The notes below the pieces were generated by a model that saw only the letters and a program-made list of their open reading frames with translations, did no database searches and was not told where the DNA came from. Source: Lachnospiraceae bacterium (GTDB taxonomy: Bacteria; Bacillota; Clostridia; Lachnospirales; Lachnospiraceae). From it: a stretch of 61,954 nt of DNA. The stretch spans positions 1 to 61,954 of the forward strand of contig JAFUZJ010000004.1 in assembly GCA_017476665.1 (NCBI GenBank). The letters run 5' to 3'. Below are positions 24,901 through 38,944 of this stretch, one piece after another. Position numbers and translations under genes: made by a program. The first letter of the stretch is position 1, and every line of letters starts with the position of its first letter.

Positions 24901-24950
24901 AAAATCTAGGTTTTTGGGAAAAATTACAATATACAATGGAGGCATATAAC

Positions 24951-26174
24951 ATGAAAGAGAAAGTGATCCTTGCTTACTCCGGTGGTCTGGATACCACTGC
25001 GATCATTCCCTGGTTGAAGGAGAATTTTGATTATGAAGTGATCTGCGTCTGCATCGACTGCGGACAGGCAGAGGAGCTGGACGGTCTGGAAGAGAGAGCG
25101 AAGTTCTGCGGCGCTTCCAAGCTTTATATTGAGAATGTGATCGATGAATTCTGCGATGAGTACATTGTACCCTGCGTACAGGCCAATGCCATCTATGAGA
25201 ACAAGTACCTGCTGGGTACTTCCATGGCACGTCCGCTGATTGCGAAGAAGCTGGTGGAGATCGCCAGAAAGGAAGGCGCTACCGCAATCTGCCACGGCGC
25301 AACCGGAAAGGGCAACGACCAGATCCGTTTCGAGCTGGGCATCAAGGCGCTGGCACCCGATATCAAGATCATCGCTGCATGGAGAAATGACAAGTGGACC
25401 ATGGATTCCCGTGAGTCCGAGATTGAGTACTGCAAGGCACATGGTATTAACCTGCCTTTCTCTGCGGATTCTTCCTATAGCCGTGACCGCAACATCTGGC
25501 ACATCAGCCATGAGGGTCTGGAGCTGGAGGATCCCGCCAACGAGCCCAACTATGATCATCTGCTGGTACTGGGCACCACGCCGGAGAAGGCTCCCGATGA
25601 GGGCGAGTATGTGACCATGACCTTTGAGAAGGGTGTTCCCACTTCCGTAAACGGCAAGCAGATGAAGGTTTCCGATATTATCCGTACCCTGAATGAGCTG
25701 GGCGGCAAGCACGGTATCGGCATCATCGACATCGTGGAGAACCGTGTGGTCGGCATGAAGTCCCGCGGTGTGTATGAGACCCCCGGAGGAACCATCCTGA
25801 TGGAGGCACATCAGCAGCTGGAGGAGTTGATCCTTGACCGTGATACCTATGCAATGAAGAAGGAGATGGGCAGCCGTTTTGCCAGCCTGGTTTACGAAGG
25901 AAAGTGGTTCACACCGCTTCGTCAGGCAGAGCAGGCATTTATCGAGGAGACACAGAAGTATGTGACCGGCGAGGTGAAGTTCAAGCTCTACAAGGGCAAT
26001 ATCATCAAGGCTGGCACCACTTCTCCTTATACCCTTTACAACGAGAGCATTGCTTCCTTTACCACCGGTGATCTCTATGATCATCATGATGCAGAGGGCT
26101 TCATCAATCTGTTCGGCCTCTCCTGCAAGGTGAGAGCAATGAAGATGCAGGAGCAGGGCATTGATCTGCTGTAA
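24951..26174 (+). CDS. argG: argininosuccinate synthase
   Basis: The 407-residue enzyme joins citrulline and aspartate using ATP in arginine synthesis. The PP-loop is AYSGGLDTTAIIPWL; ATGKGNDQIRFELG and KSRGVYETPGGTIL are further family blocks. The frame opens at ATG 24936, but GGAGG at 24938-24942 lies 8 bases before ATG 24951, so that start was chosen. argH, its usual partner, is not here; instead the ATP synthase operon follows and other arg genes come after it. Confidence 0.96.
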   Translation: MKEKVILAYSGGLDTTAIIPWLKENFDYEVICVCIDCGQAEELDGLEERAKFCGASKLYIENVIDEFCDEYIVPCVQANAIYENKYLLGTSMARPLIAKKLVEIARKEGATAICHGATGKGNDQIRFELGIKALAPDIKIIAAWRNDKWTMDSRESEIEYCKAHGINLPFSADSSYSRDRNIWHISHEGLELEDPANEPNYDHLLVLGTTPEKAPDEGEYVTMTFEKGVPTSVNGKQMKVSDIIRTLNELGGKHGIGIIDIVENRVVGMKSRGVYETPGGTILMEAHQQLEELILDRDTYAMKKEMGSRFASLVYEGKWFTPLRQAEQAFIEETQKYVTGEVKFKLYKGNIIKAGTTSPYTLYNESIASFTTGDLYDHHDAEGFINLFGLSCKVRAMKMQEQGIDLL

Positions 26175-26295: not shown

Positions 26296-27018
26296 TTGGG
26301 TAATCTGGCAGAATATCTGATGGAAGAGCTGGAATGTGAGACTGTGTTCAAGATCCCGATCCGTATCCCGCAGATTGCAGCATATGCGGACGGAATTCCC
26401 GTACATGAGTCCATTGTGGTGACATGGATCATTATGGCAGTTTTGATCCTGGTTTCCATTATTCTCACCCGAAACCTGAAGGTGGATCACATCAGTAAGC
26501 GGCAGGCGGTGGCGGAACTGATTGTGACGAAGCTCACCGGCATGGTGGAGGGAATGATCGGAGAAAACGGCAAGGCATATGTGCCCTGGCTGACCACGGT
26601 GCTTTTATATATCGGCGTGGCAAACGCGATCGGGTTGTTTGGAATGAAAGCGCCCACGAAGGACCTGAATGTGACGGTGGCATTGGCGGCCATGAGCATC
26701 ATTCTGGTGGAGGCGGCAGGCATCTATCAGCTGGGTGTGAAGCGATGGCTGCATAAGTTTCTGGAACCGGTGGCAGTGGTGCTGCCCATCAACATTCTGG
26801 AGCTTGTGACCAGACCGCTTTCCCTGTGCATGCGACTGTTTGGTAATGTATTGGGCGCGTTCGTCATCATGGAGCTGATCAAATTTGTGGTGCCGGTGAT
26901 CCTGCCGGCAGTGCTGTGCTGTTATTTTGATATTTTTGACGGACTGCTGCAGGCGTATGTGTTCGTGTTCCTGACCTCTATGTACATCAGTGAGATGTTA
27001 GAGGTGGAGGAAGCGTGA
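26296..27018 (+). CDS. atpB: ATP synthase F0 subunit a
   Basis: The 240-residue membrane protein forms the ion half-channels with the c ring. It has about five to six helices, and the key late helix carries ELVTRPLSLCMRLFGNVLGA, with the essential Arg of the stator (in SLCMRLFGN). GAAGGAG lies about 9 bases before TTG 26296, giving a normal length. The open frame extends to 26197 without a good start, so 26175-26295 looks like a leader. The start codon is not certain. Confidence 0.9.
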   Translation: MGNLAEYLMEELECETVFKIPIRIPQIAAYADGIPVHESIVVTWIIMAVLILVSIILTRNLKVDHISKRQAVAELIVTKLTGMVEGMIGENGKAYVPWLTTVLLYIGVANAIGLFGMKAPTKDLNVTVALAAMSIILVEAAGIYQLGVKRWLHKFLEPVAVVLPINILELVTRPLSLCMRLFGNVLGAFVIMELIKFVVPVILPAVLCCYFDIFDGLLQAYVFVFLTSMYISEMLEVEEA

Positions 27019-27078: not shown

Positions 27079-27306
27079 ATGAATACGAGTTTAATCGCAA
27101 TCGGAGCAGCTATCGCAGTTTTCGGCGCCATCGGCGCAGGTATCGGTATCGGAATGGCTACCAGTAAGGCAGTGGAGGCCATCGCAAGACAGCCGGAAGC
27201 TTCCGGCAAGATCAATACAGCGTTGATCCTGGGATGTGCGCTGGCGGAGGCAACGGCAATCTACTGCTTTGTCATCGCGCTGATGATCATTGTTATGTTG
27301 AAATAA
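27079..27306 (+). CDS. atpE: ATP synthase F0 subunit c
   Basis: The 75-residue hairpin protein forms the rotor ring. The first helix has GAIGAGIGIGMATSKAVEAI, the polar loop is ARQPEASGK, and the second helix carries the ion-binding Glu57 in ALAEATAIY. The sodium-type signature (Gln at position 24 here, and Glu-Ser in helix 2) is absent: the sequence has Ile24 and Glu-Ala. Proton coupling is therefore expected. Confidence 0.96.
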   Translation: MNTSLIAIGAAIAVFGAIGAGIGIGMATSKAVEAIARQPEASGKINTALILGCALAEATAIYCFVIALMIIVMLK

Positions 27307-27335: not shown

Positions 27336-27824
27336 ATGCTGAGTGTTGATCCGTTTAATTTAATCTGTACGGTTGTGAACCTTTTGATCCTGTTTGTGGC
27401 GCTTAGGATATTTCTTTTCAAGCCTGTGCAGAAGATCATTGCCGAAAGACAGGCCCAGGCGGATGCGCAGTTGAACGAGGCGGCTGCCAGGCAGAAAGAG
27501 GCGGAGAGCCTGAAGGCGCAGTACAGTTCTTCCATGGCAAAGGCTGAGGAGGAAAAGAAGCAGCTCTTAAATACCGCGAGAAAAGATGCAGACGAGCAGT
27601 ATCAGAAGATCGTGGAGGAAGCAAAAGCACAGGCGAAGCAGATCGAGGAGCGCGCGGTGGCAGATGCCCAGAATCAGAAAAACCGCATTCTCAAGAACAC
27701 GGAGAAGGAAATTGCAGACATGGTGGTGGCTGCGGCGGAGAAGATGGTGGGAACCCAGAGCGGCGCAAAGATCGACAGGTCTCTTTATGATGAGTTTTTA
27801 GGGAAAGCAGGAGAAGAACAGTGA
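27336..27824 (+). CDS. atpF: ATP synthase F0 subunit b
   Basis: The 162-residue protein has one N-terminal membrane helix (FNLICTVVNLLILFVALRIF) and a long charged coiled coil rich in Ala, Glu, Lys and Gln, forming the peripheral stalk dimer. AAGGGAAGCGAT precedes ATG 27336; the open frame upstream overlaps atpE and is not used. It ends at normal length without a delta-like extension, and its stop overlaps the next start by one base (TGATG). Confidence 0.94.
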   Translation: MLSVDPFNLICTVVNLLILFVALRIFLFKPVQKIIAERQAQADAQLNEAAARQKEAESLKAQYSSSMAKAEEEKKQLLNTARKDADEQYQKIVEEAKAQAKQIEERAVADAQNQKNRILKNTEKEIADMVVAAAEKMVGTQSGAKIDRSLYDEFLGKAGEEQ

Positions 27825-29572
27825 TGCGGGCAGAACTGATTTATGTGACTGCGCCCAGTGAGGAACAGCTCGCGGGAATCCGCAGCTTTCTTGCCAAGGA
27901 ACTGGGCAGCGAGGAGATAGAGCTGCAGCTTGTGGAGGATGCTTCGCTTGAGAGCGGTTTTATCCTTCGGACAGACAGCAGGGAGTACGACTGGAGCGCA
28001 AAGGGCCGTGTGGCGCAGCTGCAGGGCGTTTTGGGCAAAGCGTTTGCGGGCAGCAGTATTCCGCTGGATGAAAAAAAGATAGAGGACAATATCATTTCAA
28101 TCCTGCGCGCCAATCTGGAAGCGTTTGAATTGGAGGCAAAGGATCAGGAGATCGGTATTGTCAATTGGGTGGGAGACGGCATCGTAAATGCAGATGGCAT
28201 CGACCATGCCTACTATGGCGAGATTGTGCTTTTTGACTGCGGCGTCAAGGGAATGGTGCAGGATGTGCGCCGGGACGAGATCGGCATTATCCTGTTCGGC
28301 CGCGACACGGAGATCCATGAGGGCAGCCGGGTAGTGCGTACCGGTAAGATGGCGGGCATTCCCGTGGGTGACGGCTTTAAAGGCAGAGTAGTGGACGCGT
28401 TGGGCGCTCCTCTGGACGGATTGGGCGAGATTGAGGCGGAAGGATACCGTCCCATTGAGAATCCGGCCCCCGGTATCGTAGACCGGAAATCTGTGGCAGT
28501 CCCCATGGAAACCGGACTTTTGTCCATTGATTCCATGTTCCCCATCGGCAGAGGACAGCGTGAGCTGATCATCGGGGACAGGCAGACGGGTAAGACATCC
28601 ATCGCCATGGATACCATTATGAACCAGAAAGGAAAAGGTGTGATCTGCGTCTATGTGGCCATCGGACAGAAGGCGTCCACCATTGCCAAGCTGGTGAATA
28701 CGTTGAAACAAAGCGGAGCTATGGATTATACCGTTGTGGTGTCCGCAACGGCATCCGATCCGGCGCCGTTACAATATATTGCGCCCTATTCCGGCACGGC
28801 GCTGGCGGAATATTTTATGTATCAGGGCAAGGATGTGCTGATCGTTTACGACGATCTCTCCAAACATGCGGTGGCCTATCGCGCCATATCGCTGCTGTTG
28901 GAGCGGTCCCCGGGGCGTGAGGCATATCCCGGAGATGTGTTTTATCTGCACTCCAGACTGCTGGAGAGGTCTTCCAGACTGACCCCGGAGAAGGGCGGCG
29001 GTTCCATTACGGCGCTGCCCATCATAGAGACCCAGGCGGGGGATGTATCGGCTTATATTCCCACCAATGTGATCTCCATCACGGACGGTCAGATTTATCT
29101 GGAGAGTGAACTGTTTAATGCGGGTCAGAGGCCGGCCGTCAATGTAGGTCTGTCCGTATCCCGTGTGGGCGGCGCGGCGCAGACCAAGGCGATGAAGAAG
29201 GCTGCCGGAAGTGTGCGTATCGACCTGGCACAGTATCGGGAGATGGAGGTGTTTACCCAGTTTTCCTCCGATCTGGATGACAATACCAAGAAGCAGCTGG
29301 CGCATGGGCGTGCCTTGATGGAACTGCTGAAGCAGCCTATGGGAGAGCCGTTTACCATGGCCGAGCAGGTGATCACGCTGGTCTGTGCCAATGCGCATAT
29401 CTTCAGCGATATAGAAGCCGGCAGAATCAAGGAATTCAGACGGGGGCTTCTACAGTATTTTCATGCTGATCACAAAGATGTGATCAGCCAGCTGGAGACC
29501 ACAAGAGATCTGGCGGATGACGTGAAGGCAGCGATCGTGGAGGCGGCTGTGGAATATAAGAACAGGCTCTAG
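27824..29572 (+). CDS. atpA: ATP synthase alpha subunit fused to a delta-type C-terminal domain
   Basis: The 582-residue protein is about 75 longer than ordinary alpha. Residues 1-75 (start MRAELIYVTAPSEEQLAGIR) match the C-terminal domain of delta/AtpH: AELIYVTAPSEEQLAGI aligns with the AEVDVISAAALSEQQLAKI segment of E. coli delta, and EDASLESGFILR and AKGRVAQLQGVL fit its later strands and helix. A complete alpha follows from about residue 85 (DNIISILRANLEAF), with Walker A GDRQTGKTS and the arginine finger in SVSRVGG. No separate atpH lies between atpF and this gene, and the delta N-terminal domain is absent. The ATG overlaps the atpF stop; GTG 27821 is an alternative. Confidence 0.88.
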   Translation: MRAELIYVTAPSEEQLAGIRSFLAKELGSEEIELQLVEDASLESGFILRTDSREYDWSAKGRVAQLQGVLGKAFAGSSIPLDEKKIEDNIISILRANLEAFELEAKDQEIGIVNWVGDGIVNADGIDHAYYGEIVLFDCGVKGMVQDVRRDEIGIILFGRDTEIHEGSRVVRTGKMAGIPVGDGFKGRVVDALGAPLDGLGEIEAEGYRPIENPAPGIVDRKSVAVPMETGLLSIDSMFPIGRGQRELIIGDRQTGKTSIAMDTIMNQKGKGVICVYVAIGQKASTIAKLVNTLKQSGAMDYTVVVSATASDPAPLQYIAPYSGTALAEYFMYQGKDVLIVYDDLSKHAVAYRAISLLLERSPGREAYPGDVFYLHSRLLERSSRLTPEKGGGSITALPIIETQAGDVSAYIPTNVISITDGQIYLESELFNAGQRPAVNVGLSVSRVGGAAQTKAMKKAAGSVRIDLAQYREMEVFTQFSSDLDDNTKKQLAHGRALMELLKQPMGEPFTMAEQVITLVCANAHIFSDIEAGRIKEFRRGLLQYFHADHKDVISQLETTRDLADDVKAAIVEAAVEYKNRL

Positions 29573-29580
29573 GAGGCTTT

Positions 29581-31937
<2,357 letters not shown>

Positions 31938-31973: not shown

Positions 31974-32387
31974 ATGAATACATTTTCATTGAAAATTACA
32001 GCCTGTGACAGGGTGTTTTATGAGGGCGAGTGCGAGATCCTGATCTTTCCCGTGGAGGACGGGGAGATGGCGATCATGGCGCACCATGAGCAGATGACGA
32101 CGACGGTGGAGATCGGAGAACTGCGGTTTCGCACGCCGGACGGGGCAGAGCACGTGGCGATCGTCTCCGACGGCATGCTGCAGGTGGCGCACAATCAGGT
32201 GAAAGTTATCGTCTATTCTGCGGAGACCCCGGAGGAGATCGATGCCTTCCGCGCCCGGGCAGCCGAGGAGCGGGCCAGGGAGCAGCTGCGTCAGAAGCAG
32301 AGCATCATGGAGTACCATATTTCCAGGGCTTCCCTTGCCAGAGCCATGGCACGGCTGCGGGGCAAGGATAAACACATGCCGGAGTAA
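31974..32387 (+). CDS. atpC: ATP synthase epsilon subunit
   Basis: The 137-residue protein has the N-terminal beta sandwich (FSLKITACDRVFYEGECEIL, FPVEDGEMAIMAHHEQM) and a C-terminal helical hairpin with RAREQLRQKQS. Epsilon couples the rotor to the c ring and can inhibit hydrolysis through the C-terminal helices. It is the last gene of the atp operon. No clear T-run terminator follows. Confidence 0.94.
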   Translation: MNTFSLKITACDRVFYEGECEILIFPVEDGEMAIMAHHEQMTTTVEIGELRFRTPDGAEHVAIVSDGMLQVAHNQVKVIVYSAETPEEIDAFRARAAEERAREQLRQKQSIMEYHISRASLARAMARLRGKDKHMPE

Positions 32388-32555: not shown

Positions 32556-33614
32556 ATGATCAAAGTAGGTATTATCGGTGCGACCGGTTATGCAGGTGCG
32601 GAGCTGGTGCGGATCCTGGCAAATCACAAAGAGGCGCAGATCGTATGGTACGGTTCCCGCAGCTATATTGATAAAAAGTATTACGAAGTGTATCAGAACA
32701 TGTTCCAGATCGTGGAGGATGTCTGCAAGGATGATAATCTGACGGAGCTGGCGGAGCAGGTGGACGTGATTTTCACCGCCACCCCTCAGGGTTTCCTGGC
32801 GGGGCTGCTCACAGAGGAGATCCTGCAGAAGGTAAAGATCGTGGATCTTTCCGCGGACTACCGCATCAAGGATGTGGCGGTTTATGAGAAGTGGTACGGC
32901 ATCGAGCACAAGTCTCCCCAGTTTATCGAGGAGGCGGTTTACGGGCTCTGCGAGATCAACCGGGACAAGATCACGGACAAGACCCGCTTGGTGGCGAATC
33001 CCGGCTGCTACACGACCTGCTCCATTCTGACCGCATATCCCCTGGTGAAAGAGGGGCTGATCGATGTGGACACCCTGATCGTGGATGCCAAGTCCGGTAC
33101 CTCCGGCGCGGGCAGAGGCGCAAAGCTGCCCAACCTGTTCTGCGAGGTAAACGAGAATATCAAGGCCTACGGTGTGGCAACCCACCGGCATACGCCTGAA
33201 ATCGAGGAGCAGCTGGGCTATGCGGGCAACTGTGAGGTGACCATCAATTTCACTCCCCATCTGGTGCCCATGAACCGCGGCATTCTGGCAACGGAGTATG
33301 CGAAATTAAAGAGAAAGCCTGACGGCAGCCTGCCGACCTACGAGGAGATCAAGGCGGTCTACGACAAATACTATGCCAAGGAGAAGTTTGTCCGCGTGCT
33401 GGACAAGGGCGTGTGCCCTGAGACCAAATGGGTGGAAGGCAGCAACTATGTGGACATCAATTTTGTGATCGACGAGCGGACCGGCCGCGTGATCATGATG
33501 GGTGCATTGGACAATCTGGTGAAAGGCGCAGCGGGGCAGGCGGTGCAGAATATGAACCTGTTGTTTGGGCTGAAGGAGAGCGAAGGCTTGGAGCTGGTGC
33601 CCTGCTTCCCGTAA
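32556..33614 (+). CDS. argC: N-acetyl-gamma-glutamyl-phosphate reductase
   Basis: The 352-residue NADPH-dependent enzyme makes N-acetylglutamate semialdehyde. The dinucleotide fold begins MIKVGIIGATGYAGAELVRI, and the catalytic Cys is in VANPGCYTT. GTSGAGRGAKLPNLFCEVNE and THRHTPEIEEQL are further family blocks. GAAGGAGA precedes the ATG. It starts the second arg segment, with ArgR-like boxes upstream. Confidence 0.97.
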   Translation: MIKVGIIGATGYAGAELVRILANHKEAQIVWYGSRSYIDKKYYEVYQNMFQIVEDVCKDDNLTELAEQVDVIFTATPQGFLAGLLTEEILQKVKIVDLSADYRIKDVAVYEKWYGIEHKSPQFIEEAVYGLCEINRDKITDKTRLVANPGCYTTCSILTAYPLVKEGLIDVDTLIVDAKSGTSGAGRGAKLPNLFCEVNENIKAYGVATHRHTPEIEEQLGYAGNCEVTINFTPHLVPMNRGILATEYAKLKRKPDGSLPTYEEIKAVYDKYYAKEKFVRVLDKGVCPETKWVEGSNYVDINFVIDERTGRVIMMGALDNLVKGAAGQAVQNMNLLFGLKESEGLELVPCFP

Positions 33615-33635
33615 GAGATAGATTTGGAGAAATAC

Positions 33636-34100
33636 ATGAGCGACAAGACATATACCATCAAGAAAATGACAAAGGAAGACTACGACGGTCTTCGCGCGCT
33701 GTGGATGACCATCAAGGGCTTCGGGATCCGCAGCATTGACGATTCCCGCGAGGGCGTGGAGCGCTTCCTGAAGCGTAATCCCGAGACCAGCGTAGTGGCG
33801 GTGGCGGAGGACGGCTCCATCGTGGGCGGCATTCTCTGCGGCCATGACGGCAGACGCGGCTGCCTGTACCATGTGTGCGTGCGGGAGGACTACCGCAGAC
33901 TCGGCATCGGCAAGGCCATGGTGGTCTATTGCATGAATGCCCTGAAGGCGGAGCAGATCAACAAGGTGAGCCTCATCGCGTTTACGGTCAACGATATCGG
34001 TAACGCGTTCTGGAACTGCATCGGCTGGACGAAGAGAGAGGACCTGAACTACTATGATTTCACCCTGAACGAGGCGAATATCACGGCGTTTAATAAGTGA
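33636..34100 (+). CDS. GNAT-family acetyltransferase (YpeA-like)
   Basis: The 154-residue protein has the GNAT fold, with acetyl-CoA-binding motif REDYRRLGIGKAMVV and the preceding strand CGHDGRRGCLYHVCV, similar to E. coli YpeA. TTGGAGA precedes ATG 33636; the upstream in-frame codons lie within that site. It lies 21 bases after argC, so it is probably co-transcribed. The substrate is unknown. N-acetylglutamate synthesis is conceivable, but argJ in this window can already recycle the acetyl group. Confidence 0.8.
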   Translation: MSDKTYTIKKMTKEDYDGLRALWMTIKGFGIRSIDDSREGVERFLKRNPETSVVAVAEDGSIVGGILCGHDGRRGCLYHVCVREDYRRLGIGKAMVVYCMNALKAEQINKVSLIAFTVNDIGNAFWNCIGWTKREDLNYYDFTLNEANITAFNK

Positions 34101-34152
34101 TGATTCTTGTCTGCGTTTTGTTTTGGGGACGGAATAAAAGAGAGGGCTTTCC

Positions 34153-35298
34153 ATGAGAGTGTTTGATACCTATACCTTTAATATAGCGGACAAGGTAAAA
34201 TTCAAGGACACCAAGAATTACCTGGATCAGATGCTGGCGGAACTGGAACTTCATTTCAAGGAAGTTTCGTTCACTTTTCAGAGCTTTATGGCAAGTATCG
34301 ATCAGCTTGTGGCGAAGTATCCGAACCTGGAAAAATATCGTTATCCCTATTTCCAATTCAATGGGGAAGAGATTCTCACCAGCCTCACGCCAAAGTGGCT
34401 TGAGGGGGAATTGTATGCTGATAAGGAGGACTGGAAGACGATTTTTGAGATCGCCGCTAAGGTTCCGCGGGGATATAATGTACAGCCGACCATTAAAATG
34501 GATCAGATTGACTGGTATGGGGAAGGCGTAAAGGAGCCTGCCATTACGCCGCAGCAATTTTATGTGGGGAATGCGCTGCTGTGTTCCCATAGCCCTGTGG
34601 ATAACAGTGGGATCGAGATGATCAGGGAGTTTGATCACGGCAACAAATATAATATGGTACGCGTCACGGTTGAAGCGACGAAAGGGGATGGATCAACTGC
34701 CGAGGAGCCGAGAAATACGGCGGATATTCTGGCAAAGCTGACCCCCTATCTGGGGATGCCAACCTATACAGCAAGAGCCTGCAGATTCAAGCCGGAGGAA
34801 TACAGACTGTATGAAACGTATCAGAAGGAATGTGGGCAGCTATTGGTAGATAGACTGCAGGAAGCCTACCAGAAAGAGGAGGAGGCACGTCGCGGCGAAG
34901 ATTGGCGGGACGCTTTCAATAAACCTTTTGTGCCGAATCTGGCAGACAAGAAGAAAGTAAAGGCTGCATTTAAAGGCACAGATTTTGTCATGGGAGACAG
35001 AAAAGGGCTGCTGCCCGGCATGAACCGCGTAGTCTGTATTGACAAACACAATTTCCGGTTTGAGGTGATGACCGACAGGACACAGACGTCGCCGGATTAT
35101 TTCTATTTTTATTACGATATTTCCGGATATAACTTTCACCTGTGCAGCCTGCAGAATACCGTTTGTGCGTCTTCAGAGGAGGAAGCGGTGAAAAAGCTCG
35201 CTGAGTTGGCAGAGTTCTGTGTGAAGGTCAAGGATGACTTTGGGGAGCTGTTAGCGGAGAAATTCGGGAACACGCCGAGCTGGTATCGGTATGAATGA
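34153..35298 (+). CDS. hypothetical protein
   Basis: I do not recognise this 381-residue protein. It has no signal peptide or membrane helix, and is rich in Tyr, Phe and charged residues. A region around residues 220-260 (YQKECGQLLVDRLQEAYQKE) is helical and charged. A possible core is KGLLPGMNRVVCIDKHNFRF. GAGAGGG precedes the ATG by 7 bases. It is 52 bases after the GNAT gene and 12 bases before a SUKH-domain gene, so the two may act together. Confidence 0.6.
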   Translation: MRVFDTYTFNIADKVKFKDTKNYLDQMLAELELHFKEVSFTFQSFMASIDQLVAKYPNLEKYRYPYFQFNGEEILTSLTPKWLEGELYADKEDWKTIFEIAAKVPRGYNVQPTIKMDQIDWYGEGVKEPAITPQQFYVGNALLCSHSPVDNSGIEMIREFDHGNKYNMVRVTVEATKGDGSTAEEPRNTADILAKLTPYLGMPTYTARACRFKPEEYRLYETYQKECGQLLVDRLQEAYQKEEEARRGEDWRDAFNKPFVPNLADKKKVKAAFKGTDFVMGDRKGLLPGMNRVVCIDKHNFRFEVMTDRTQTSPDYFYFYYDISGYNFHLCSLQNTVCASSEEEAVKKLAELAEFCVKVKDDFGELLAEKFGNTPSWYRYE

Positions 35299-35310
35299 GG
35301 CAAATATATT

Positions 35311-36066
35311 ATGGGATTCCTGCTTTTTGTGATTGCGATTATAGTGATCGGCGTTGCGACCATCAAACAAAAACGGAAAAACAGAGAAAAATTTCATCTG
35401 GCATGGCAGGAGCTGTTAAACGCTCAGAACGACAGCGAGGAAAGCACGGGAACAGTGGACGATACTGTAATCTTCCCAAAAGCGGAAATGGAAGATACGG
35501 CGAAAACCGCAGCAACACGTTCCTGCGTCATGCGGGAGCCCCGAAATGCGGACGAGATCATCGTTCCGCTGGATTTTCTGTTAAGAGAAGAAATGGAGAC
35601 GCTTTTGTATCTGGCTAAGCAATATCCGGATGAGGTGACGGTTGATGTCTATCCGCCGGCAGACAGAACTGAGATTGCAGCGTTTGAGGAAAGAACAGGA
35701 ATCCGGCTGACACAGGAACTGAAGACGTTCTATCAATTTGCCAACGGTCTGACGGTATGTAACGGAACACTGGAGCTTGAAAGTCTGGAAGTGATAGAGA
35801 ACCTATATAAAACGGGTTACTGTGACTGGAAAGAGGAAGGGGATGCCGATGATTACGTCATGATTGGCTCTGTGATTGGAGACGGCGAGTATCTCATCAT
35901 GGAAAAGAAGACGGGGCATATTTTCTGGCATGATGAGGGTGAAATGACGGATTATGAGACAGTGAGAAATCTGCTTGACTGGGTGATTGATTTTGAATAT
36001 GATGGGTATTGCCGACATGAAGCGGAAGATGAGCGAATAAAGGCATATCTTGACAGAAGGATATAA
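35311..36066 (+). CDS. membrane-anchored SMI1/KNR4 (SUKH) domain protein
   Basis: The 251-residue protein has an N-terminal membrane helix (GFLLFVIAIIVIGVATI), a charged linker and a C-terminal SUKH-type domain (about residues 115-240), with ADRTEIAAFEERTGIRLTQE, FYQFANGLTV and YLIMEKKTGHIFWHDEGEMT. SUKH domains are common immunity proteins against nuclease toxins in contact-dependent and polymorphic toxin systems, and also occur in housekeeping roles. A nuclease-like gene lies 1.3 kb downstream, past argJ, so an immunity role is possible but unproven. Confidence 0.7.
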   Translation: MGFLLFVIAIIVIGVATIKQKRKNREKFHLAWQELLNAQNDSEESTGTVDDTVIFPKAEMEDTAKTAATRSCVMREPRNADEIIVPLDFLLREEMETLLYLAKQYPDEVTVDVYPPADRTEIAAFEERTGIRLTQELKTFYQFANGLTVCNGTLELESLEVIENLYKTGYCDWKEEGDADDYVMIGSVIGDGEYLIMEKKTGHIFWHDEGEMTDYETVRNLLDWVIDFEYDGYCRHEAEDERIKAYLDRRI

Positions 36067-36127
36067 GGGCTAGGCAAAAAAGGGTATGGAAACTTAGCAG
36101 AATGATATAGAAATCGAGGGAAAAACA

Positions 36128-37381
36128 ATGAGCACAGAGACAAATGCAAACAGCAAGATCAAACAGATCGAGGGCGGCGTCACCGCCGCAAAGGGCTTTC
36201 AGGCGGCATGCTGCGAGGCCAATATCAAATACAAAGACCGCACCGACATGGCAATGGTTTATTCTGAAATCCCCTGCGAGTGCGCGGGAACCTTTACCAG
36301 CAATGTGGTGAAGGCAGCCTGTGTCCAGTGGGATCAGAAACAAGTCTCTTCCGGCGCCAAGATGCAGGCGGTTGTAGTCAACTCCGGCATCGCCAATGCC
36401 TGCACCGGACAGGAGGGCTGGGATGCCTGTGAAGCTACTGCCAAAGCGGTGGAAAAAAGCTTAAATGTACCCGCGGAGAGCGTGGCGGTTGCCTCCACCG
36501 GCGTCATTGGCATGCAGCTTCCCGTGGAAAAGCTGGTAAACGGCGTGGAGAAGATGAGCAAGACACTGGCGCACACAATCGAGGCGGGAACGGCGGCCTC
36601 CAAGGCCATTATGACCACCGACACCATCAACAAAGAAATTGCGGTTACCTTTGAGATAGAGGGCAAGACCGTGACCTTAGGCGGCATGAGCAAGGGCTCC
36701 GGCATGATCCACCCTAACATGTGTACCATGCTGGGATTCCTCACCACAGACCTTTCCATTGAGAAATCGCTGCTCCAGGAAGCCCTCAGCAATGTGATCA
36801 AGGATACCTTCAATATGATCACCGTGGACGGTGATACCTCCACCAACGATACCCTGTTGATCATGGCAAACGGGTTGGCAGAGAACAAGACCATTGCAGA
36901 CAAGGGAGAGGCATATCATACGTTCTACGAAGCGCTGTTCACTGTGTGCAGATACCTGGCCCGCAGAATGGCGGGAGACGGCGAAGGCGCCAGCAAGCTT
37001 TTCGAGGCGAAGGTGGTCAATGCCAAGTCCAAGGATGACGCCAGAACCTTATCCCGCGCCATCGTGGGTTCCAACCTCTCTAAGGCTGCCATCTACGGTT
37101 GCGACGCCAACTTCGGACGGTTCCTCTGCGCTATGGGTTACTCCGGCGCGCAGTTTGACCAAAATGATGTAGAGCTTTTCTTCGAGAGCAAATTCGGCAG
37201 ACTGCAGGTGTTCGACAGAGGCACGCCGATCGTGTTTGACGAGGAGCTTGCCAAGAAGATCATGGAAGCCGACGAAGTGACCGTCTTTGTGGACATGCAC
37301 GAGGGCGAAGAGGAAGCCACCGCATGGGGCTGCGACCTCACTTACGATTACGTGAAGATCAACGCGGACTACCGCTCATAA
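36128..37381 (+). CDS. argJ: bifunctional glutamate N-acetyltransferase / ornithine acetyltransferase
   Basis: The 417-residue enzyme transfers acetyl from N-acetylornithine to glutamate (and may also use acetyl-CoA). It is a self-cleaving Thr enzyme; the cleavage block is GGMSKGSGMIHPNMCTMLGF, with the nucleophile Thr after Cys where Ala-Thr is commoner. EECRGEGR-type regions are replaced by GDGEGASKLFEAKVV near the active site. GAGGG precedes the ATG. It is separated from argC by three accessory genes. Confidence 0.95.
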   Translation: MSTETNANSKIKQIEGGVTAAKGFQAACCEANIKYKDRTDMAMVYSEIPCECAGTFTSNVVKAACVQWDQKQVSSGAKMQAVVVNSGIANACTGQEGWDACEATAKAVEKSLNVPAESVAVASTGVIGMQLPVEKLVNGVEKMSKTLAHTIEAGTAASKAIMTTDTINKEIAVTFEIEGKTVTLGGMSKGSGMIHPNMCTMLGFLTTDLSIEKSLLQEALSNVIKDTFNMITVDGDTSTNDTLLIMANGLAENKTIADKGEAYHTFYEALFTVCRYLARRMAGDGEGASKLFEAKVVNAKSKDDARTLSRAIVGSNLSKAAIYGCDANFGRFLCAMGYSGAQFDQNDVELFFESKFGRLQVFDRGTPIVFDEELAKKIMEADEVTVFVDMHEGEEEATAWGCDLTYDYVKINADYRS

Positions 37382-37396
37382 AAAGGAGGATTTTAT

Positions 37397-37927
37397 ATAG
37401 ACAATAATAGAAATGTTTCAATCATAAAGGATATTAATGGTAATGATATTGTTTTGATAAATGATGCGGAATTCAAAGGAAGAAGAGGAATAGATTGGGA
37501 CAATGTAAAAGATTATCTGAAAAGGTTTGTAGGTGATACCTATCAGATTACAGCAACAGGTGATGTGCTCCATATTGGAGCAGATTTTCCGAATGAATAT
37601 ACGGGATCGGTCTATACATACAGATTGAAGGGGGCTGTTTCCAAAGCAAAAGCAAATGCTGCCCAGGGAATTCCTGAAATGATTGAAATTGCATCAGGTG
37701 GAAATTTTAGAGAGAATCAAGAACAGAAGCATTATAGGAATGCAAAATATGGATGGTATCGATTTGATTCCCGTTTTGCTATGCCTGTATATAGTGATAA
37801 AGGGGAGGTTGAAAGATATAACGTTTTTCATGTATCATTAATTGTAAGGCATGCAGAAGATGATAAAATGTATCTGTATGACATCATTGACATAAAAAAA
37901 GAAACAGGCAACCCGCTTGAGCCATAA
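37397..37927 (+). CDS. PBECR-like nuclease, start codon apparently ATA
   Basis: The frame encodes about 176 residues ending YDIIDIKKETGNPLEP, with FKGRRGIDWDNVKDYLKRFV near the start and HYRNAKYGWYRFDSRFAMPV in the middle. This fits the PBECR group (phage Barnase-EndoU-ColicinE5/D-RelE-like RNases) seen in phage and polymorphic toxins. Coding sequence continues upstream of the first usual start (TTG 37454) to an ATA at 37397, which lies 7 bases after a perfect AGGAGG (37384-37389). So an ATG seems to have become ATA, or a rare start is used. It is AT-richer than its arg neighbours, suggesting transfer. It is in frame with argJ after one stop. Confidence 0.6.
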   Translation: MDNNRNVSIIKDINGNDIVLINDAEFKGRRGIDWDNVKDYLKRFVGDTYQITATGDVLHIGADFPNEYTGSVYTYRLKGAVSKAKANAAQGIPEMIEIASGGNFRENQEQKHYRNAKYGWYRFDSRFAMPVYSDKGEVERYNVFHVSLIVRHAEDDKMYLYDIIDIKKETGNPLEP

Positions 37928-37984
37928 GGCTGTACACGACACAAAACCCATTTCTTGATTTTATGATAGATTAGAAAAAAGATT

Positions 37985-38014
37985 TTGTCAAGCAAATTTA
38001 GAATTTAAAATAAT
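37985..38014 (+). promoter_or_regulatory. possible promoter for argB
   Basis: TTGTCA (37985-37990), an 18-base spacer and AATAAT (38009-38014), 33 bases before the argB start, in an AT-rich gap after the nuclease gene. The -10 is a weak match. Confidence 0.35.
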
Positions 38015-38047
38015 AATCAGCATATGTGGAGTATAAGTAGAATCATC

Positions 38048-38944
38048 ATGGAAAAAGATATGCAGCAGGTATTGCAGAAAGCCGAAGTGCTCATTGAGGC
38101 GCTTCCCTACATTCAGAAATTCAACCGCAAGATCATTGTGGTCAAATACGGCGGCAGCGCCATGAGCAATGAAGAATTGCAGAAAAACGTCATCAAGGAT
38201 GTGACCCTGTTAAAGCTGGTGGGCTTCAAGCCCATCATTGTACACGGCGGCGGCAAGGAGATCAGCCGCTGGGTGGGTAAGGTCGGTAAAGAGGCGAAGT
38301 TTGTAAATGGTCTGCGTGTGACCGACGACGAAACCATGGAGATTGCCGAGATGGTGCTGGGCAAGGTGAACAAGCAGCTGGTATCCATGGTGCAGGAGCT
38401 GGGCGTGAAAGCCGTGGGCCTGAGCGGCAAGGACGGCGGTCTGCTCAAGGTGCAGAAGAAATATTCCGACGGACAGGACATCGGTTTTGTGGGTGACATC
38501 ACCGACGTGGATCCCAAGGTATTATATGACCTTCTGGAGAAAGACTTCCTGCCCATCGTGTCCCCCATCGGCCTGGACGACAAGTTCAAGACCTACAACA
38601 TCAACGCTGACGATGCGGCCTGCGCGGTGGCAAAGGCTGTGGGTGCGGACAAACTGGTATTCCTGACCGATATTGAGGGCCTTTACAAAGACATCAACGA
38701 CAAGTCCTCCTTTATCTCCCGACTGACGGCAGACCAGGCGGATGAGCTCATTAACGGCGGTTTCATCGGGGGCGGCATGCTGCCCAAACTGTCCAACTGT
38801 ACCTCGGCTATCCGCAACGGCGTAAACCGCGTCCATATCCTGGATGGACGTATCCCTCACTGCCTGCTTCTGGAAATCTTTACCGACAAAGGTGTGGGAA
38901 CAGCCATCGTTGCCGACGAGGACGGCGAGAGCCAGCACGCATGA
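38048..38944 (+). CDS. argB: acetylglutamate kinase
   Basis: The 298-residue kinase phosphorylates N-acetylglutamate, the committed step before argC. It has [40 protein letters not shown] and [20 protein letters not shown], all amino-acid-kinase motifs. The frame is open to ATG 38024, and there is a third ATG at 38060; none has a strong ribosome-binding site. ATG 38048 was chosen as the usual family length. Feedback inhibition by arginine is common for long forms. Confidence 0.95.

Follow-up and report, generated by a model that had tools for sequence, protein, structure and literature searches.

How many peripheral stalks can an F-type ATP synthase carry when the domain that docks the stalk has become a part of alpha? 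The question is raised by an operon in a 61,954 nucleotide stretch of a Lachnospiraceae genome (the window, meaning the whole of that stretch), in which the gene for alpha begins with the C-terminal domain (CTD) of delta. According to the accessible portion of Ueno et al. 2025 (PMC12229609), every ATP synthase so far is held to contain just one a subunit, and so the H+/ATP ratio is set by the size of the c-ring. In that account the N-terminal domain (NTD) of the Bacillus PS3 delta sits on the three-fold axis and holds the stalk number to one, and deletion of this NTD with fusion of the CTD to alpha gave an enzyme with up to three b2 stalks, each with one a subunit, the particles with 0, 1, 2 and 3 stalks making up 15, 51, 26 and 8%, and with an H+/ATP ratio doubled to 5.8. 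The same portion states that Acidaminococcus fermentans has an NTD-less delta-alpha fusion and predicts a multi-stalk enzyme for it; this organism belongs to the Negativicutes (Bacillota).

The fused gene and its operon

The window operon has the order a-c-b-(delta)alpha-gamma-beta-epsilon, with the following parts (window positions).

26296..27018, + strand: atpB, subunit a, TTG start, 240 aa (PF00119; NF004486 above cut-off)
27079..27306, + strand: atpE, subunit c, with ALAEAT (PF00137)
27336..27824, + strand: atpF, subunit b, of ordinary length, 162 aa (PF00430; TIGR01144 above cut-off)
27822..27826, + strand: TGATG, stop of atpF and start of the fusion gene, one-base overlap
27824..29572, + strand: atpA fusion gene, delta CTD and complete F1 alpha, 582 aa
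27827..28027, + strand: delta CTD (aa 2-68), the b2-docking domain, with the motif YDWSAKGR
28028..28084, + strand: linker, then the first part of the alpha N-terminal helix (aa 69-87)
28085..29569, + strand: complete alpha subunit (aa 88-582; TIGR00962 at 735.9 bits over aa 88-579, cut-off 484.45; PF02874, PF00006, PF00306)
29581..30534, + strand: atpG, gamma, 317 aa (PF00231, TIGR01146)
30543..31937, + strand: atpD, beta (TIGR01039, 799 bits)
31974..32387, + strand: atpC, epsilon with its C-terminal domain (PF02823, PF00401)

The preliminary description had aligned the alpha N-terminus by eye with the delta CTD and had found neither a delta NTD nor an atpH in the operon, and all of this is borne out. 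Domain content and fold both identify the b-binding Delta/OSCP CTD in the window AtpA, a delta/OSCP profile run on the N-terminus matching there with the CTD part of the profile. The helical, alpha-clamping NTD is absent, the profile match beginning only at position 99 or 104, and because the fusion gene overlaps atpF by one base there is no space for an NTD; the gene order likewise leaves the operon without atpH. Nor does the window atpF carry a delta domain, PF00430 (ATP-synt_B) being its sole Pfam match above cut-off. It is practically certain that the fusion is real, and the fused domain is very probably a working dock for b. Most likely the operon encodes an H+-type F1Fo ATP synthase whose delta is reduced to the b-binding CTD, covalently joined to the N-terminus of alpha. 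A full-length AlphaFold model of the fusion protein had a mean pLDDT of 58 and was set aside.

The window gamma is of 317 aa, against 292 aa for the canonical gamma of the same genome. Genes named by eye as argG-like (24936-26174) and argC/argJ/argB-like (32556-38944) flank the atp operon, which looks as if inserted into an arginine cluster; in the DNA around the 80 named loci described below an argG match was found at two (L106, L117) and an argC match at none.

Relation to engineered and natural systems

As a layout the alpha-side fusion, which the preliminary description did not know to have been characterised, had already been engineered and had been noticed in A. fermentans (PMC12229609, in the portion available). 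The window protein (582 aa) aligns end to end with chain I of PDB 9JC1 (580 aa), residues 12-571 of one on 15-569 of the other, and among the 60 distinct PDB sequences listed (68 matched) this chain is the only one with a best match starting before residue 77. Both the PS3 deltaDeltaN-alpha FoF1 of that entry and the window protein lack the delta NTD and have the CTD joined in frame upstream of alpha by a short linker; the PS3 enzyme is engineered, with a truncated epsilon and a determined stalk number, whereas that of the window is natural, with the epsilon CTD present. The A. fermentans fusion (UniProt G4Q3K6 and A0A1I2C5T3, as named in the available part of PMC12229609) is, like the window protein, a delta-alpha fusion without the NTD. 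The window fusion belongs to the type that Ueno et al. named and is not the first natural case. In the literature searched, with bioRxiv and most subscription papers outside it and some sources available in part, Ueno et al. 2025 was the only report of a delta-alpha fusion found, and no natural enzyme of the NTD-less kind was found described as characterised. As far as that search goes, what is new is the breadth of the fusion in Lachnospirales, the full-delta fusion as a sister state, the repeated NTD loss, the absence of a signal for starting inside the gene, and an open reading frame (ORF) that joins b, delta and alpha.

In the mycobacterial b-delta fusion too delta has been relocated by gene fusion, and the CTD folds match; there delta lies on b, whereas here the CTD alone lies on alpha and atpF is a separate, ordinary 162-aa ORF, as the preliminary description had it. 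An operon in PMC5709465 has the gene set and order of the window's, sits beside a complete F1Fo operon and is probably of the same kind; the accessible part of that paper describes a unit without delta and makes no mention of a delta domain on alpha, whereas the window alpha carries one. The N-ATPases (alternate F1Fo), for which the available text of PMC11738941 gives delta as absent or fused with b and the order as beta-epsilon-X-X-a-c-b(delta)-alpha-gamma, are a further comparison. The window resembles them as a second F-type operon without atpH, and the N-ATPase b model matches its delta domain weakly (13.5 bits), but it differs in gene order, in the delta domain on alpha and in an H+-type c. 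It is not an N-ATPase by any of the seven alternate-F1F0 models that matched, all scoring below cut-off (bits/cut-off: TIGR03324 603.7/750.5, TIGR03305 602.9/752, TIGR03306 130.7/302.1, TIGR03321 84.7/224.7, TIGR03322 52.8/130.85, TIGR03323 84.6/282.35, TIGR03166 28.3/100.1).

A second F-ATPase in the same genome

The genome of the window also carries a full-length delta (154.6 bits, C23:80630-81145, minus strand), within a canonical operon (L005, G000:C23:74000-90000) in which genes for a, c, b, delta, alpha, gamma and beta are in view. The two operons share their core subunits, that on C23 differing by its separate full delta and by the c subunit, which reads GQ...AVAETTG where the window c reads ALAEAT and lacks the Gln. 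By the ligand residues we take the former to be a Na+-type and the latter an H+-type pattern. The window c, with its ALAEAT and without the canonical Gln, is thus predicted to be of the H+ type; it lacks the Na+ ligand set of the canonical c and does not group with Na+-coupled F-ATPases. Across window-type operons with c in view the pattern is E-A-T at 159 loci and ALAETT at one, with 12 loci giving no pattern match. The genome is predicted to encode one Na+ and one H+ F-ATPase.

The preliminary description had held that a separate full-length atpH elsewhere in the genome would refute the fusion. Such a gene is present, but it concerns a different enzyme, and the fusion stands all the same, since 10 of 20 other fused genomes gave no delta above the Pfam cut-off apart from the fused one (G043, G050, G062, G068, G079, G082, G109, G130, G137, which is 81% complete, and G142). 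A separate full delta accompanies the fusion in nine, and G075 has two partial delta matches on other contigs; these 20 genomes were hand-picked, several for a single alpha in an earlier scan.

Distribution of the fusion

A survey across Lachnospiraceae and beyond, as had been proposed, drew loci from 150 family genomes, region fetches, 392 order genomes and a scan of named genomes (the best 80 of 148). Four classes were used: full delta-alpha fusions (F), NTD-less fusions (C), separate deltas (S) and a b-delta-alpha ORF (T). The 185 loci comprise 92 F, 48 C, 39 S (6 of them canonical-type), 1 T, 1 undecided (L070, cut by the contig end with no delta in view) and 4 not scored (L001-L004, excluded from classification); some represent the same place twice and most were found via a fusion search, so these counts are not frequencies. 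The delta-alpha fusion is found in 140 of the 185, in isolates and MAGs alike. Pseudobutyrivibrio ruminis, P. xylanivorans, Eubacterium uniforme and Agathobacter ruminis are named carriers of the full fusion, and Lachnospiraceae bacterium NK4A144 (L184) and KH1P17 (L183) of the NTD-less one. A search of 398 phylum genomes found further fusions, and the 20 further fused loci (19 places) from the order and phylum scans are all NTD-less; fused matches in other families (G179, G251, G288, G361) were left out of the locus set. No plasmid-borne copy was matched in 72,556 plasmid records. Within the window's own genus 2 of the 10 other genomes listed have the fused N-terminus (G022, NTD-less; G359, full fusion), with a weak match in G344; G022 and G359 group with each other and apart from the window on the alpha-core tree, which suggests transfer or loss.

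A single ORF at L045:2056-4389 (G068:C33) encodes b, a charged linker, the delta CTD and alpha, 778 aa from the first Met; that genome gave no other alpha match (E 1e-30 or better) and no other delta match. As read from the gene, every alpha would come linked to a b of its own. No second such ORF was seen among the matches listed for 397 family genomes, and for that reason it could be an artefact; nor was one among the matches listed for G068 and 60 relatives. At L044 (G062) and L062 (G044) a single stop codon divides atpF from the delta-alpha gene, which shares its frame, leaving these loci one step short of the state of L045.

Some loci depart from these layouts. In three with a separate delta (L025, L030, L032) the delta ORF ends in RR and overlaps the start of the alpha ORF by four bases as listed, so that fusion needs only a small change. 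L143 (Eubacterium uniforme) and L082 combine a full fusion with a charged, probably helical C-terminal extension of alpha (a 758-aa ORF in L143; L082 is cut by the locus end). The separate delta-like ORFs of L248 (240 aa) and L249 (349 aa), measured from stop to stop, exceed a normal delta in length and are possibly other delta fusions.

Probable repeated loss of the delta N-terminal domain

A quick tree was made from alpha cores stripped of the delta part, with 110 of 159 distinct cores (88% clustering within class; L070 excluded). In it 72 fused sequences (36 F, 35 C, 1 T) fall into one clade with SH-aLRT 99, which takes in 72 of the 104 non-redundant non-canonical alphas; two F sequences fall outside, and fused versus separate requires three changes. 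A second tree, of 126 sequences (without L237, too short, and L232 and L238, copies, and with the earlier set thinned), has five such changes, at least three of them forced by starred branches. The delta-alpha fusion is, on these phylogenies, old and widespread.

Full and NTD-less fusions are interleaved within the fused clade, requiring 17 NTD losses if loss is irreversible, 15 when only branches of at least 80 are used and 9 with branches of at least 95. On a more careful tree of 42 sequences, forcing the NTD-less ones into one clade costs 234 log-likelihood units (p-AU 3.9e-5), and a single origin of the NTD-less state is rejected; the 42 were chosen after the first tree to take in sister pairs, and so the p-value is not one for a group named beforehand. 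In that subset the F and C labels are hardly more clustered than when shuffled (162 and 202 of 500 shuffles were as low). NTD-less fusions exist outside the window's clade too, as in family f55 (L230-L232, L237), where the delta CTDs look canonical and the two placed on the tree lie outside that clade. In one sister pair, L107 (F) and L108 (C), the difference is a single in-frame gap, 219 nt long, which takes out most of the NTD but spares its first part. With b in view at 47 of the 48 NTD-less loci, the delta CTD match lies within 98 nt of the b stop in 47 of 47, and so no NTD gene fits between. Repeated loss of the NTD seems the best reading of this interleaving, although a recombination breakpoint lying between N-terminus and alpha core could produce the same pattern.

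The fused delta domain is under strong purifying selection, and mostly retains the YDWS..GR motif, with selection acting in a single frame to either side of the junction. The NTD is conserved in full-delta fusions. A relaxed constraint on the NTD before its loss found no support, the median ratio of NTD to alpha-core divergence being 3.78 in full fusions and 5.08 in separate deltas, from distances near saturation.

Stalk number

The preliminary description had three delta-like domains facing a single b dimer. This may not follow, the engineered equivalent having its own b2 and a for each fused domain (Ueno et al. 2025, PMC12229609, available portion). The covalent fusion would take over from the non-covalent clamp between delta NTD and alpha, three alphas would provide three docking domains per enzyme, and the delta NTD, which in PS3 limits the stalks to one, would be gone; with three docks and no NTD the complex could therefore accommodate two or more b2 stalks, each paired with an a subunit of its own. 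With several stalks the enzyme would move more protons per ATP and work at low proton-motive force. Since the window protein fits the same description as the engineered and A. fermentans fusions, three docks and one to three stalks are thought most likely for it, and what speaks for several stalks is the layout together with the recurrent loss of an NTD that is conserved while present. That a sizeable share of the complexes would have more than one stalk we regard as evenly balanced. The fuller proposal, to which we give a little under an even chance, is that Lachnospirales, along with several further Bacillota lineages, have natural multi-stalk ATP synthases whose alpha3beta3 heads each bear two or three b2/a units on one c-ring, with H+/ATP = Nc x Na, reached by an old fusion and then repeated NTD deletion; full-delta fusions would be single-stalk intermediates that still live, and in G068 the b-delta-alpha ORF would mark an end point with a covalently fixed stalk number.

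A plainer account, which we hold to be a serious contender if well short of an even chance, is that the fusion replaces the clamp only, one delta CTD binding b2 while the others stay free and two docks are idle. Full-delta fusions keep a conserved NTD, and fusion alone therefore does not imply several stalks; they carry three deltas where the axis has room for one NTD, yet account for 38 of the 74 non-redundant fused genes, so that idle delta copies seem to be tolerated. Fused deltas with their NTD are evidently viable, presumably in an enzyme that has a single stalk and leaves two of its deltas spare. In keeping with a single stalk, 51% of the engineered particles had one, but all three docks were usable in that same enzyme (PMC12229609, in the available text), and idle docks would leave the recurrent post-fusion loss of a conserved NTD unexplained. 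Ribosome-site strength gives no sign of raised b synthesis, that of atpF not differing between NTD-less, full-fusion and separate-delta operons. For atpB it is higher in full fusions than with separate deltas (p 0.0005, uncorrected and with relatedness ignored), and in NTD-less operons it is not above that of full fusions (p 0.06, in the opposite direction); raised synthesis in NTD-less operons is in sum unsupported for b and mixed for a.

A normal stoichiometry might also be restored if an internal start or proteolysis left the delta domain on one alpha and removed it from two. The window gene does have an in-frame GTG at aa 63, its best internal start near the linker, with a weak 4-nt Shine-Dalgarno (SD) match, and an in-frame ATG occurs in the linker region of 33 of the 74 non-redundant fused genes; 25 of these, however, have no in-frame ATG, GTG or TTG there, and a start with an SD match of at least 5 nt is found in 3 of the 74, where about 7 are expected from synonymous reshuffling, unlike the separate alpha genes, 30 of 30 of which have such a match (8 nt in 25). 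With no internal start signal detectable across the 74, all three alphas should, from the gene sequences, carry the domain unless proteolysis trims it, and we consider a stoichiometry restored by either route improbable. Still less probable is that the extension is a vestige and that the fused enzyme borrows the free delta of a second operon: the full-length delta on C23 could in principle bind it, and nine of the 20 other fused genomes have a separate one too, but the ten with no other delta found and the selection on the fused domain, motif included, argue against this. An assembly or frameshift artefact we find barely credible; nothing at the window points to one, the L045 ORF alone being open to it, and the recurrence in isolates and MAGs and the one-frame selection across the junction speak against it. 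Among these accounts an F-ATPase freed from the limit of one stalk is the likeliest.

Physiological setting

The fused operons would offer a natural counterpart of the engineered experiment, run many times over, with related species having or lacking the NTD on otherwise similar operons. Two questions, whether multi-stalk ATP synthases exist and whether fermenters living on small ion gradients use them, become testable in named rumen isolates. The use may be in making ATP, or in pumping more protons for each ATP where the force is low; a low-force H+ ATP synthase working alongside the Na+ one would be in keeping with the setting, and an ATP-driven H+ pump is equally so. Hackmann and Firkins describe, in the accessible part of PMC4478896, an F0F1-ATP synthase in butyrivibrios that is driven by Rnf and often also by Ech. 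A protein matching PF00346, as in Ech-type hydrogenases, occurs in 4 of 10 fused genomes tested and not in that of the window (G000), so a matched H+ pump is not established; RnfC lies above cut-off in all 10, the window's genome included.
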